Source: Bacteroidota bacterium (GTDB lineage: Bacteria; Bacteroidota; Bacteroidia; 2-12-FULL-35-15). Taken from it: a stretch of DNA of 33,363 nucleotides. The notes under the pieces are model-generated. The model was not told where the DNA came from. It made no database searches and saw only the letters and a program-made list of their open reading frames with translations. Shown here one piece after another: positions 28,352 through 33,363 of the stretch. The position numbers were made by a program, and so were the translations under genes. Every line of letters starts with the position of its first letter. Position 1 is the stretch's first letter. The stretch is from positions 1 to 33,363 of the forward strand of contig JAHEXZ010000057.1 in the NCBI GenBank assembly GCA_023251835.1. The letters are read 5' to 3'.

Positions 28352-29099
28352 ATGGCATCAACATCAGAAACAGGACACGCAAAAAATGTTGCAAACTTTG
28401 AAGATTTAATCTCATTTTGCACAGGTTACGGAACTGCCTACAATCCGTCAAAGGCATCAATCAAGATTCCTGCACTGAATACAACTTTCACAAGTGCCAA
28501 AGGAACGCTTACTGCAATCAACACCGCATTGCCACCCCATACAAATGCAGTTAATGCAAGGGATATAGTATTTTCTCCATTGAACAAATTAATTACAAGG
28601 ATTAATAATGCAGTCGGCTCAAGCAATGTTTCAAAACAAGTTATTGCAGACGCTAAAACAATCACAAGAAAACTTCAGGGAAAAAGAGCAAGCGATAAAT
28701 TACCTGTTGTTACTTCTGACCCTACAGCCCCAGTAGAGGAATCATCCAAAAGTATTTCATCCTCACAAATGAGTTTTGATAATCGCATAGAAAATTTGGA
28801 TAAACTCATTCAACTTTTAGCATCGCAGACGGGCTACGCACCAAACGAAACCGATTTAAAAGTTACCGCCCTGACAACTTTGTTGGCAGATATGCGGACA
28901 AAAAATACGGCAGCAGTCAACGCTTTCACGCCCCTAAGCAATGCACGCATCGCAAGAAATTCCGTTCTTTACGCAACAGGGACAGTGACTGATTGATGTG
29001 GCAGGTGATGTAAAAAAGTATGTAAAATCGGTCTTTGGCGGGACAAGTCCCCAATATAAACAGGTTAGCGGACTGAAATTTACTAAAGTCGGCAAATAA
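28352..29099 (+). pseudogene. Frameshifted protein of unknown function
   Basis: The first frame from ATG 28352 gives 214 residues to TGA 28994-28996 and is Ala/Ser/Thr-rich, with FEDLISFCTGYGTAYNPSK, QVIADAKTITRKLQGKRAS and DLKVTALTTLLADM. After the stop, the next frame continues plausibly (LIDVAGDVKKYVKSVFGG, SPQYKQVSGLKFTKVGK) to TAA 29097-29099. If the T at 28986 is removed, the two join as ATGTGLIDVAG without loss, so a single inserted base or sequencing error broke the gene. The intact product would have about 248 residues. It appears to be a small family often found near mobile DNA in Bacteroidota (recalled, not checked). Function unknown. Confidence 0.72.
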
Positions 29100-29230: not shown

Positions 29231-29496
29231 GAGCAAAAAAAAGTAGTTATTTGAAAATAATATTTACACTTTATTTTTAGTTGTAAATGTTTCACCATTG
29301 TTTCACCTTTCTTGTATTATAGCAATCAACTATCTGATTGTTAAATAAATACAACTTAATGAAGATTCCTCCGAGACAAAGAAAACGCATGTCTTAAAAG
29401 AGGTTATTGCTGATTATAATTTGTAGTATTCTGATGTCGACAGTTCTAATTATATTGGTGCGGAATCACTACTGGATGATCCTTTTTGAGTATTGT

Positions 29497-29518
29497 TTGT
29501 ATGCAAATTGTATGCAAA
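29497..29518. repeat. Tandem 11-base repeat in module copy 1
   Basis: TTGTATGCAAA occurs twice in a row (29497-29507, 29508-29518). Position and size fit an integrase binding site. The same pair occurs at 31548-31569. Confidence 0.65.
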
Positions 29519-29520
29519 TA

Positions 29521-29555
29521 AAAAAGGGTTACAACCGCCAACGTGTTGTAACCCC
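29521..29555 (-). terminator. Terminator hairpin, minus strand, copy 1
   Basis: GGGTTACAAC (29526-29535) pairs with GTTGTAACCC (29545-29554). Read on the minus strand, a T-run follows the stem. It lies directly after the tRNA-like sequence. Confidence 0.75.
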
Positions 29556-29565
29556 GTTTCTTCTG

Positions 29566-29645
29566 CTCCTTCTGCTGGACTTGAACCAGTGACCCTCTGA
29601 TTAATCCCGCACATGCGGGACTCTAACCAACTGAGCGAGTTTTTC
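29566..29645 (-). other. tRNA-Asn-like sequence, copy 1, anticodon arm remodelled
   Basis: On the minus strand the 3' half (TTAATCAGAGGGTC, then the T arm ACTGGTTCAAGTCCAG, then CAGAAGGAGCA) matches tRNA-Asn of Bacteroidota, and the D arm GCTCAGTTGGTTAGAG is present. The anticodon arm is replaced by TCCCGCATGTGCGGGA, a hairpin with no tRNA-type anticodon loop. The 5' acceptor strand (GAAAAAC) does not pair with AGAAGGA. It is therefore not a working tRNA, but rather an integration footprint or structured RNA. A protein frame read across it is an artefact. Confidence 0.65.
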
Positions 29646-29745
29646 TCCTGGGACAAATTCAGGATGGATTAAATTCTCAATTAGTTTTCTCGATTTTTAC
29701 TTTTTAATAAACCGTTCGATAATTAATGCTTCCCTTCTGTTATTT

Positions 29746-30302
29746 GCTGCGAAGCCAAAAACACCGGAACAAACTAAAGCAAAAGATTTTTGGTTTTTAG
29801 TTATGCTTGTAATGGCATGAATATAAAGGACATTGCATTGCTGAAATATGAGAACCTACAGGACGACAAAATAATATTTTACCGTGCAAAAACTATTAAC
29901 ACTTCAAAAACGGATTTAAAACCGGTAACAGTTTATCTAAATGATTTTTCCAAAACCGTAATTAAAAAATACGGAATTAAAAAAACTGATAAGGCCGATT
30001 ACATATTTCCGATAATATCCGATCAGGAAACAGAGGTTGTAAAACATAACAAGATTAAAAATTTCACCAAATTCATTAATCAAAATCTTAAAAAATTAGC
30101 GATTAGTGAATGAATAACAAGCGACATTTCAACTTATTGGGCAAGACATAGCTTTGCTACTAATTCTATTCGTAACGGAGCAAGTATGGAGTTTGTAATG
30201 GAAGCATTAAGCCACAACAATATGAAAACAACTGTTGGTTACTTTGCAGGATTTGAGGATAAAGACAAAAAAGAGTTTATGAAAAAATTAATGAATTTTT
30301 AA
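29746..30302 (+). pseudogene. Tyrosine recombinase/integrase remnant, copy 1
   Basis: The fragment starts at AAKPKTPEQTKAKDFW (29749-29793), which belongs to a phage-integrase catalytic domain. A one-base loss in the T-run 29794-29798 shifts the frame to SYACNGMNIKDIALLKYENL (from 29799). The second break is TGA 30111-30113, in-frame, where the family likely has Gly (ISE-stop-ITSDIS). After it, the catalytic box TYWARHSFATN and GYFAGFEDKDKKEFMKK follow to TAA 30302. The N-terminal half of the enzyme is absent. It is dead unless helped by another integrase. Confidence 0.82.
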
Positions 30303-30322
30303 GTACCCCGATAAAATAAAAG

Positions 30323-30330
30323 TAGATTTG
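30323..30330 (+). promoter_or_regulatory. -7 box of the DUF1016 gene
   Basis: TAGATTTG at 30323-30330 fits TAnnTTTG and precedes the start by 23 bases. No clear -33 box is seen. Confidence 0.5.
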
Positions 30331-30353
30331 TAAAACAGTAATCTATCAATATT

Positions 30354-31472
30354 ATGGAATTGCTTAAAGGAAAAAATTACACCCAATTAGTCAGTTCATT
30401 AAAACAACGCATTGCCGGTGCGCAAATTAAAGCTGCATTAGCTGCAAATACTGAATTAATCCATTTATATTGGGATATGGGTTGTATGATTTCTAAAGAA
30501 ATTAAAAGTCGAGGTTGGGGAGCTAAGGTAACGGAGCAAATATCTAAAGATTTAAAAGGGGAATATCCTGACATGGAAGGTTTATCAGACAGTAATCTTC
30601 GCTATATGAGGAGGTTTTCAGAAGTTTATCCCGATTTATTTCGCCCACAGCTTGTGGACAAATCTGTAATTCGCCCACAAGCTGCGGGCAAATTGAAAAA
30701 AGAAAATCAATCTTCAGTAGAAGCCTCATTCATAGGGCAAATCCCTTGGGGACATAATAGAGTATTGTTAGATAAATTAAACAATACCGAAGAACGCTTA
30801 TGGTACGCTCAACAAACAATTCAATACGGTTGGTCGAGGGTTGTACTTGAACATCAAATTGCAAGTGGATTATACGAAAGGCAAAGCAAATCAAAGAAAG
30901 CTACTAATTTCAAAAAATTATTGCCAAAAGCCCAATCCGAATTAGTGGAGCAAACATTGAAAGACCCATATGTTTTTGACTTTCTTAATCTCTCGAAAGT
31001 GCAGAAAGAAAAAAATATGGAGGATCAACTTACTAATCATATTACTAAATTCCTTATGGAGCTTGGGGTTGGCTTTGCTTTTGTGGGCCGACAATATAAT
31101 TTAAACATAGGCGGTGATGATTTTTTTATAGACCTTCTTTTTTATCACATTCACTTGAAATGTTATGTAGTGATTGAATTAAAAATGGAAAAGTTTAAAC
31201 CCGAATATGCCGGACAACTAAATTTTTACCTTACAGCTGTTGACGAACTATTAAAACGAAATGATGATAACCCCTCTATTGGAATTTTACTCTGTCCGAG
31301 CAAAAATCACATTGTAGCGGAGTTTTCCTTACGTAACATGAACAAACCAATTGGAATAAGCGAATACAAACTAACCGCAAAGGTTCCAACAAAACTGAAA
31401 AGAGATTTACCGATTGACAAATTAAAAGCGGAATTGGAAAACCGATTGAAAATGAATAAGAGTTCTGAATAG
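30354..31472 (+). CDS. PDDEXK nuclease-domain protein, DUF1016 / YhcG family
   Basis: This is a 372-residue protein with the N-terminal DUF1016 helical domain (about 1-175: LIHLYWDMGCMISKE, GWGAKVTEQISKDLK, LSDSNLRYMRRFSEVYP, IPWGHNRVLLDKLN, WYAQQTIQYGWSRVVLEHQI) and a C-terminal PD-(D/E)xK nuclease domain with D260, E275 and K277 (FFIDLL, YVVIELKMEKFKPEYAGQLNFYL). The family is found near mobile DNA and restriction loci; its substrate is not settled. A 10-residue direct repeat (RPQLVDKSVI, RPQAAGKLKK) interrupts residues 97-116, made by a DNA repeat. ATG 30354 follows the integrase remnant by 51 bases. Confidence 0.92.
   Translation: MELLKGKNYTQLVSSLKQRIAGAQIKAALAANTELIHLYWDMGCMISKEIKSRGWGAKVTEQISKDLKGEYPDMEGLSDSNLRYMRRFSEVYPDLFRPQLVDKSVIRPQAAGKLKKENQSSVEASFIGQIPWGHNRVLLDKLNNTEERLWYAQQTIQYGWSRVVLEHQIASGLYERQSKSKKATNFKKLLPKAQSELVEQTLKDPYVFDFLNLSKVQKEKNMEDQLTNHITKFLMELGVGFAFVGRQYNLNIGGDDFFIDLLFYHIHLKCYVVIELKMEKFKPEYAGQLNFYLTAVDELLKRNDDNPSIGILLCPSKNHIVAEFSLRNMNKPIGISEYKLTAKVPTKLKRDLPIDKLKAELENRLKMNKSSE
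30640..30693. repeat. Palindromic repeat inside the DUF1016 gene
   Basis: Two 24-base units begin TTCGCCCACA and end CAAAT (30640-30663, 30670-30693), with a 30-base period. Each is itself an imperfect palindrome (CCACAGCTTGTGG, CCCACAAGCTGCGGG). The period is a multiple of three, so the reading frame is kept. Confidence 0.75.
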
Positions 31473-31547
31473 TCAAATAATTGCAGTCGACAGTTCTAAT
31501 ATATATTGGTGCGGAATCACTACTAGATGATCCTTTTTGAGTATTGT

Positions 31548-31569
31548 TTGTATGCAAATTGTATGCAAA
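31548..31569. repeat. Tandem 11-base repeat in module copy 2
   Basis: TTGTATGCAAA occurs twice in tandem, as at 29497-29518. Confidence 0.65.
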
Positions 31570-31571
31570 TG

Positions 31572-31606
31572 AAAAAGGGTTACAACCGCCAACGTGTTGT
31601 AACCCC
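31572..31606 (-). terminator. Terminator hairpin, minus strand, copy 2
   Basis: It has the same stem GGGTTACAAC/GTTGTAACCC as copy 1, with the same T-run on the minus strand, next to the tRNA-like sequence. Confidence 0.75.
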
Positions 31607-31616
31607 GTTTCTTCTG

Positions 31617-31696
31617 CTCCTTCTGCTGGACTTGAACCAGTGACCCTCTGATTAATCCCGCACATGCGGGACTCTAACCAACTGAGCGAGTTTTTC
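31617..31696 (-). other. tRNA-Asn-like sequence, copy 2
   Basis: This is identical in all visible features to the copy at 29566-29645: intact T arm, altered anticodon arm and unpaired acceptor strands. The two copies being the same suggests a functional site or recent duplication rather than drift. Confidence 0.65.
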
Positions 31697-31882
31697 TCCT
31701 GGGACAAATTCAGGATGGATTAAATTCTCAATTAGTTTTCTCGATTTTTGCTTTTTAATAAACCGTTCGATAATTAATGCTTCCCTTTTGTTATTTGCTG
31801 CGAAGCCAAAAACACCGGAACAAACTAAAGCAAAAGATTTTTGGTTTTTAGTTATGCTTGTAATGGCATGAATATAAAGGAC

Positions 31883-32096
31883 TAATCAAAATCTTAAAAA
31901 ATTAGCGATTAGTGAATGAATAACAAGCGACATTTCAACTTATCGGGCAAGACATAGCTTTGCTACTAATTCTATTCGTAACGGAGCAAGTATGGAGTTT
32001 GTAATGGAAGCATTAAGCCACAACAATATGAAAACAACTGTTGGTTACTTTGCAGGATTTGAGGATAAAGACAAAAAAGAGTTCATGAAAAAATTA
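31883..32096 (+). pseudogene. Integrase C-terminal remnant, copy 2
   Basis: The frame holds the RHSFATN box and FAGFEDKDKKEFMKK, with the same in-frame TGA as copy 1. The 245-base deletion removes the central catalytic part. The last residues run in-frame into the receiver gene through the sequence ATGAAAAAATTA at 32085-32096. Confidence 0.75.
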
Positions 32097-32423
32097 TTGT
32101 GGTTAGATGATTACCGTGACCCATTGGTGGATAATTGGCTTACATATAGTCCAATTGAAAAGCCTTTTGATTTAATTTGGATTAAAAACCCTGACGATTT
32201 TAAAAAGTGGATTAATGAAAATGGATTGCCCGATGCCATTTGTTTTGACCACGATTTAGGCGAAACCGAAAGTGGCTTTGATTGTGCTAAATGGTTAGTG
32301 GAGCATTGTTTAGACAATAAATTAAGATTGCCAAAATATAATATTCAAAGCGCAAATCCTGTTGGTAAAGATAATATTGATGGTTTATTCAAATCGTTTA
32401 TAAAAAGTGGGCAGGGCTTTTAA
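32085..32423 (+). CDS. Cyclic-phosphate-processing receiver-domain protein
   Basis: This is a 112-residue protein from ATG 32085 (MKKLLWLDDYRDPLVDNW), with acidic pairs D8-D9 and the loop AICFDHDLGETESGFDCAKWL (D55, D57). The layout is that of the cREC_REC receiver-like domain associated with cyclic-phosphate processing. A longer frame to 31992 would add 31 residues of integrase tail, which belong to the upstream remnant; the common stretch ATGAAAAAATTA marks the junction. It may be a stand-alone signalling or nucleic-acid-processing domain. Function unproven. Confidence 0.75.
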   Translation: MKKLLWLDDYRDPLVDNWLTYSPIEKPFDLIWIKNPDDFKKWINENGLPDAICFDHDLGETESGFDCAKWLVEHCLDNKLRLPKYNIQSANPVGKDNIDGLFKSFIKSGQGF

Positions 32424-32515: not shown

Positions 32516-32573
32516 AAGTTTACAAAAAAACTTCACTTTTTGTGAACTTTTTAATAAATATAACGTATATTTG
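32516..32573 (+). promoter_or_regulatory. HigBA promoter and operator
   Basis: AAGTTTACAAAAA (32516-32528) and TTTTTGTGAACTT (32537-32549) are inverted repeats of 13 bases with one mismatch and an 8-base spacer. A perfect -7 box, TATATTTG, is at 32566-32573, with the -33 region inside the repeat. Antitoxin binding here would block transcription. Confidence 0.7.
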
Positions 32574-32907
32574 TACGAGAATTCATTTAATCAAAGAACA
32601 AACGATTAGAAACTATGTTCAAGGGAATGCTAGCAGTAAGGCTTCTTTTGAAGATTGGTTAACTAAAATAAAATATGCGGATTGGAAAATACCGGAAGAT
32701 ATTCAAATGACTTTCAATTCTGCGGATTTATTGGGTAAAAGCTCTCACAGAGTTGTATTTGATATTGCAGGAAATAATTACAGAATGATTTGTAAATATG
32801 CCTTTGGAGAAAAAGAAGCCCATTTATTTGTTTGTTGGATTGGTACGCATGCAGAATATACCAAGGTATGTGGTAAAAATGAACAATATACAGTAACCTT
32901 ATATTAA
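32542..32907 (+). CDS. higB: HigB-type mRNA interferase toxin
   Basis: This is a toxin of the HigB family, which cleaves mRNA at the ribosome. It matches at ASFEDWLTKIKYADWKIPEDI, SSHRVVFDIAGNNYRMICKYAF and CWIGTHAEYTKV, the conserved core. GTG 32542 gives 121 residues but lies inside the operator, upstream of the -7 box, so translation likely starts lower. The family start before RIHLIKEQTI would fall at 32575, where the codon is ACG rather than ATG. So the start is doubtful: GTG, an unusual ACG or ATT, or a start lost by mutation. The antitoxin gene starts 11 bases after the stop. Confidence 0.83.
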   Translation: MNFLINITYICTRIHLIKEQTIRNYVQGNASSKASFEDWLTKIKYADWKIPEDIQMTFNSADLLGKSSHRVVFDIAGNNYRMICKYAFGEKEAHLFVCWIGTHAEYTKVCGKNEQYTVTLY

Positions 32908-32918
32908 TCCTAATTACA

Positions 32919-33363
32919 ATGGAAACATTAAAGTATAAAGTGGTCAGCTCCGAAAAACAATACTATAATTATTCTAAAATTTTGGAAGAATTGATTTTTG
33001 GCGCACCAAAAACACGGCAAGTAAAAGATGAAATCGCTTTACTCACACTTTTAATTGAAAAATGGGACCAAGGGCATAATATTTTTGAAACACTAGACCC
33101 TATTGAGTTATTAAAGTCTTTAATGAAAGATCACAAAATTAAATCATTTCAATTAGCTGAATTACTTGATGTAAGCGAAGGATTAGTTTCTGATATGCTG
33201 AACTATAAAAAAGGATTATCAAAAGAAACGATAAGAATCCTTGCGGATTATTTTAAGCTTAATCAAGAAACATTTAATAGACCATACAAATTAGTATCAC
33301 CATTAAATTCACATTTAAGGAATGCAAGTGTTATGAACACTTCCAAAAAACTTGTTGCGGCTC
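32919..33363 (+). CDS. higA: HigA-type antitoxin, XRE family, 3' end outside window
   Basis: From ATG 32919 the frame stays open to the window edge (148 codons). After an N-terminal part (METLKYKVVSSEKQY, TLLIEKWDQGHN) a helix-turn-helix is visible (LLKSLMKDHKIKSFQLAELLDVSEGLVSDMLNYKKGLSKE). This is the usual HigA plan, which neutralises HigB and represses the operon. The toxin-first order and 11-base gap are typical. The family normally ends close to this length, so only a few codons are missing. Confidence 0.85.
   Translation, partial: METLKYKVVSSEKQYYNYSKILEELIFGAPKTRQVKDEIALLTLLIEKWDQGHNIFETLDPIELLKSLMKDHKIKSFQLAELLDVSEGLVSDMLNYKKGLSKETIRILADYFKLNQETFNRPYKLVSPLNSHLRNASVMNTSKKLVAA

Follow-up and report, generated by a model that had tools for sequence, protein, structure and literature searches.

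In CIME and accretion arrays at tRNA genes, cargo lies between two att-type sites, and no working integrase accompanies it. A second kind of tRNA-associated system is known from phage T6, in which the free-standing GIY-YIG endonuclease SegB lies beside tRNA-Tyr and drives tandem amplification, and microhomology exists between the 3' end of its gene and the tRNA's 5' end (PMC13096335). The locus that we compare with these systems lies towards the end of a 33,363-base window, which is the entire contig C167 of a draft Bacteroidota genome (4.1 Mb, 171 contigs) and ends at position 33363. The remainder of the window looks chromosomal, with genes for Obg, a sensor kinase, and transporters.

Two copies of a module, both on the plus strand (the repeat proper at 29436 to 30293 and again at 31486 to 32099), start 2050 bases apart, and the order from left to right is module, DUF1016 gene, module, cREC receiver gene, HigB gene, and HigA gene. 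Over 613 aligned bases the copies differ by 7 mismatches and one 1-base indel (98.9% identity, gaps excluded), with low divergence in every segment of the module, and bases 29832 to 30076 of copy 1 (245 bases) are missing from copy 2 at 31882/31883. The original prediction of two near-identical modules, one of them 245 bases shorter, in the order module-cargo-module-cargo was therefore correct. The first cargo gene (30354 to 31472, plus strand) encodes an intact DUF1016/YhcG PDDEXK nuclease (Pfam YhcG_C, 2.8e-65; DUF1016_N, 1e-36; PADLOC candidate PDC-S02). Behind copy 2 and on the same strand are intact genes for a cyclic-phosphate-processing receiver (cREC; 32085 to 32423; PF20274, cREC_REC, 5.7e-22) and a HigB-like toxin (32542 to 32907; PF09907, HigB_toxin, 1.7e-23; PADLOC PD-Lambda-2_A), followed by a HigA-like antitoxin gene (32919 to 33363; HTH_26, 2e-6; PADLOC PD-Lambda-2_B) that is truncated at the contig edge. 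The receiver and HigBA genes had been predicted in the right order, but the receiver is of the cREC type and not of the two-component type. The contig stops in or just after HigA, ahead of any further gene of a PD-Lambda-2-type system.

In our judgment, the module is probably a dead composite scar of a tRNA-Asn integration hot spot that was duplicated once after it had decayed. The sequence shows that it is made of three pieces, carries the same lesions in both copies, and has the order of integrase and DUF1016 seen in a congener. In the left part lie the direct repeats TTTGTATGCAAAT and TTGTATGCAAAT (that is, TTTGTATGCAAATTGTATGCAAAT; 29496 to 29519), a right-end (arm-type-like) signature of tRNA-integrated elements. 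Five other genomes (L051 to L054 and L056) carry the same TTTGTATGCAAATTGTATGCAAAT repeat next to intact tRNA genes for Arg, Val, and Leu, at a distance of 30 to 70 nt from their 3' ends, and a related form lies beside tRNA-Asn in G015 and G030. Downstream of the tRNA-derived sequence, direct reading of the minus strand reveals a terminator-like hairpin (GGGTTACAAC...GTTGTAACCC; 29526 to 29554), and a similar hairpin follows the intact tRNA-Asn in G015, G024, and G030. We infer that the repeat and the terminator together may represent the right end of tRNA-integrated elements.

The tRNA-derived sequence itself is a tRNA-Asn(GTT)-like 3' half (29565 to 29604, minus strand), recognized by alignment with tRNA-Asn genes of relatives, and it supplies the kind of tRNA 3'-half core at which such elements attach. 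The resemblance to tRNA-Asn(GTT) extends over 29565 to 29636 of the minus strand, with TCCCGCATGTGCGGGA standing where the anticodon arm belongs. The arm is replaced by the palindrome TCCCGCACATGCGGGA (29605 to 29620; 31656 to 31671 in copy 2), which corresponds to a covarying hairpin in relatives. Overlapping it is the 3' end of a truncated GIY-YIG nuclease gene (29601 to 29740, minus strand; intact relatives belong to PF01541), whose final codons coincide with the tRNA D-arm and the palindrome. In copy 1 this tail reads ...ERFIKK, a stop, KSRKLIENLIHPEFVPGEKLAQLVRVPHVRD, and a second stop, and copy 2 has Q in place of the first stop. The window holds only this tail of a GIY-YIG gene, and no intact tRNA adjoins it there. 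ARAGORN predicted no tRNA gene at the module, and relaxed settings gave unconvincing structures that miss the tRNA-Asn-like stretch. Elsewhere in the same genome, the tRNA-Asn gene is at a contig edge (L050, G000:C71:1-200), where it is preceded by a second tRNA-like copy that has the palindrome TCCCGTATGTACGGGA and no T-arm.

The right part of the module (29741 to 30303, plus strand) is a dead C-terminal fragment of a tyrosine integrase, comprising about 183 of 415 residues (approximately aa 233 to 415), with an internal TGA at 30111 to 30113 and its end stop in copy 1 at 30303. Both copies read E-stop-I at the TGA, in contrast to E-G-I in integrase relatives, so neither holds an intact integrase. 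Direct repeats are present only at the right end; those of the left end are gone together with the integrase N terminus. The label "tRNA-like/integrase module" therefore holds for the integration-site parts (right-end repeats, terminator, and tRNA-derived sequence) but not for a tRNA gene, and the integrase is a C-terminal piece.

The fragment DNA is 80 to 87% identical to full-length integrase genes of G022, G027, and G003, and the family has Phage_integrase, SAM_5, and weak Arm_5 matches. Most of the inspected full-length relatives adjoin a tRNA 3'-half fragment, whose type was read by eye: Val beside the integrases of G022, G003, G006, G038, and G048, Lys in G027, and Arg in G086, while in the relatives L094, L098, and L100 the 3' half is that of tRNA-Asn. 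The full-length integrase of G022 has DUF1016 as its cargo, that of G027 has Abi_2 and a type ISP restriction-modification gene, and other relatives have, as judged by eye, excisionase-like and replication-type genes. Given these tRNA 3'-half positions and the cargo in G022 and G027, elements of this family can carry defense-type cargo at tRNA sites. The proposal of an att-like site with such cargo thus applies to the full-length relatives, which lie mostly at tRNA 3' halves and in two cases have cargo of this type.

The lesions common to both copies are the start point of the integrase, the TGA, the truncation of the GIY-YIG gene, and the palindrome. Because the integrase truncation, the stop codon, and the GIY-YIG truncation are shared, the repeat was in all likelihood duplicated after decay; separate working units would not share these lesions, and the idea that two cassettes were inserted independently is therefore rejected. 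The passage from copy 1 into DUF1016 is the same as that from the full-length integrase in G022:C987, with approximately 80% identity through both genes. The pieces of the module would have decayed and fused, after which the stretch comprising module and DUF1016 would have been duplicated once in tandem. The second unit would then have lost 245 bases inside the integrase and, by deletion across the 12-base ATGAAAAAATTA, its DUF1016 gene, joining the module to cREC-HigBA. This microhomology (32085 to 32096, plus strand) is common to the integrase tail and the start of cREC, which it joins, and a cREC relative in G003:C40 opens with the same 12 bases behind a different upstream gene. Since the join of integrase tail and cREC is in frame, it creates a 143-aa open reading frame (31992 to 32423). 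No microhomology is visible at the left boundary of the duplication or at the 245-base deletion, and neither the intermediate with two modules and two DUF1016 genes nor a preduplication state was found in any genome. The module that stands between the cargo genes is inactive by itself.

To the left of the locus, a gene at 28352 to 28996 encodes a 214-aa protein with no convincing Pfam family that is 51 to 58% identical to proteins of three congeners. The left flank was considered as a known integration site and rejected: in congeners the 214-aa gene has other contexts without tRNAs, and thus no integration site can be defined there. Likewise unsupported is an origin of the left-edge sequence GTCGACAGTTC from the tRNA-Lys of the window, as that tRNA lacks it.

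The main alternative to a single duplication is a CIME-like accretion, in which another integrase, acting in trans, would have integrated a circle of module and DUF1016 at the tRNA-Asn-like core beside a resident module-cREC unit. The anatomy of a CIME, with cargo bounded by two recombination-type sites and no integrase of its own, would fit DUF1016 here, which lies between two sites in direct orientation, each comprising a tRNA-Asn 3' half together with right-end repeats. As accretion would give, DUF1016 follows copy 1 without a break and the deletion is in the cREC-linked copy; integrases of the family occupy tRNA-Asn in other genomes, and integration of such a circle in trans would leave an identical structure. 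However, at E <= 1e-80 the genome contains only the dead fragment and no active member of the integrase family, no other such unit was found in the genome or in 98 relatives, and the core, being identical in both copies, is no guide to accretion. We therefore regard accretion as unlikely and retain the duplication of a decayed scar as the preferred account.

Far less probable is an active cassette array, as originally predicted, in which units with their own att site and defense cargo were inserted repeatedly. The order module-cargo-module-cargo and the defense-type cargo beside full-length integrases of the family agree with such an array, but both modules are dead with identical lesions, and no integron integrase or attC-like series was seen. 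An integron cassette array would comprise intI, attI, and a series of attC sites, whereas the integrase family here is tRNA associated and only two module copies exist in the genome (4.1-Mb draft in 171 contigs, with the contig edge at 33363). The module is absent from 98 relatives, among them 35 congeners, and had no match in plasmid and phage collections or, by an exact junction pattern, in viral contigs. Repeated insertion of units is thus not supported, and the situation that the original prediction had named as its own refutation, only two copies explained by one local duplication, is largely what this genome and the 98 relatives show. An assembly artifact joining two loci through a repeat at a contig end is just as improbable: although the repeat lies within the last 4 kb of a contig in a 171-contig draft, the copies differ by 7 bases, one indel, and the 245-base deletion, and copy 2 has unique sequence on both flanks.

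The GIY-YIG remnant belongs to a group of tRNA-linked genes that is apparently widespread in Bacteroidota and undescribed; no description of such a unit in this phylum was found in the open-access literature, including a paper on the GIY-YIG superfamily (PMC1564403). A GIY-YIG query trimmed ahead of the tRNA-like tail matched 79 loci in genome contigs, nearly all from Bacteroidota, and 60 of the 74 loci with more than 150 nt of upstream sequence have an intact same-strand tRNA-Asn, most often 30 to 66 nt ahead of the GIY-YIG gene. In a second search, 85 of 198 genomes of the class had a family member, and among the 28 best loci whose upstream sequence was long enough, 26 had a same-strand tRNA within 200 nt upstream (11 Asn, 4 Ala, 4 Met, 3 Val, and 1 each of His, Leu, Asp, and Ser). 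Intact relatives matched PF01541 at 1.4e-16 and 5.4e-12. Downstream of the GIY-YIG gene, a 3'-half copy of the same tRNA was found at 67 of 79 testable loci (49/54 and 18/25), a match being counted when it was better than any of 50 shuffles. Nothing in the phage collection matched the family, plasmids gave just three weak matches, all from Legionella, and Rfam searches of loci with the tRNA-like unit returned only tRNA, Flavo-1, and subthreshold matches, with no pseudo-tRNA family.

Tandem arrays of 4 to 10 GIY-YIG units exist, either behind tRNA-Asn or with tRNA-Met sequence, and the end of every unit is marked by a tRNA 3' half together with a palindrome. One array comprises three pseudo-tRNA units, one intact tRNA-Asn, and four GIY-YIG units (L212, G140:C9:623800-628200); another has ten GIY-YIG units behind tRNA-Met (L213, G140:C9:905200-912000), and a third has about eight GIY-YIG genes in tandem (L214, G195:C34:6000-11000). 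In a congener (L047, G025:C2:78000-97000), a tRNA-Asn, an intact GIY-YIG gene, and a pseudo-tRNA follow one another, and another tRNA-Asn 3' half lies 7 kb away, as if the pseudo-tRNA had served an element as an attachment site.

Direct reading showed that, in cases involving Asn, Ala, Val, Met, and Leu tRNAs, a hairpin takes the place of the anticodon arm in the copy behind the GIY-YIG gene. Among the tRNA-Asn copies, all 37 loci with both flanks preserved have a hairpin of 16 bases, a count that took only sequences chosen for TAGAG and TTAATCAGAG on either side and that includes related, nonindependent loci; its sixth pair is C-G in 22, A-T in 9, and T-A in 5 of the 37. The T-arm decays in these copies while the hairpin covaries. 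The palindrome TCCCG-N6-CGGGA has 10 sites in the genome studied here, compared with none for a reversed control, and four contigs (L035 to L038 on C9, C80, C81, and C102) carry a MITE-like repeat of approximately 110 nt (TATACCGA...TCGGTATA) with this palindrome in the middle, the L037 copy having one palindrome and a degenerate second one. Because it occurs elsewhere in the genome and also inside the MITE-like repeat, the palindrome may itself be an insertable element.

We tentatively suggest, with slightly less than even confidence, that the module's tRNA-like part is left over from widespread, undescribed, chromosomal tRNA-parasitic GIY-YIG homing units of Bacteroidota. Such units would sit directly behind a tRNA, would have the anticodon arm of their own tRNA copy (the presumed cutting site) swapped for a protective self-complementary hairpin, and would amplify in tandem, their pseudo-tRNAs providing spare attachment sites for integrative elements. 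The tRNA gene would be the target of the putative homing unit, and the palindrome would remove that target from its own copy. On the other hand, the intact upstream tRNA keeps its anticodon arm and would stay a target unless recognition needs flanking sequence.

Viewed as a cassette array, the locus is ordinary debris. What recurs is the arrangement of a tRNA, a GIY-YIG gene, and a tRNA copy with a hairpin, which involves at least eight tRNA types, with the hairpin read in five. If the homing reading is true, the unit would be a bacterial chromosomal counterpart of phage SegB, with a clear prediction of where the nuclease cuts, and it would account for the crowding of Bacteroidota tRNA loci by pseudo-tRNAs, which confuse both annotation and the mapping of islands.

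Compared with the tRNA-integrated tyrosine-recombinase elements of Bacteroidota (integrative and mobilizable elements, IMEs, or genomic islands), the module has the same integrase family, a tRNA 3'-half core, direct repeats at an end, and an integrase beside cargo, but what remains of its integrase is a fragment interrupted by a stop codon, and it lacks the left-end repeats. CIME arrays likewise have two att-type sites around their cargo and no functional integrase; here, however, both sites are probably duplicate scars. For the GIY-YIG unit, phage SegB is the nearest described relative. Both have a GIY-YIG gene directly beside a tRNA, a gene end that shares sequence with the tRNA, and tandem amplification of tRNA and nuclease. 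In contrast to SegB, the Bacteroidota genes are chromosomal, lie behind many tRNA types, and terminate in a tRNA-like copy with a covarying palindrome as its anticodon arm; none matched the phage collection.
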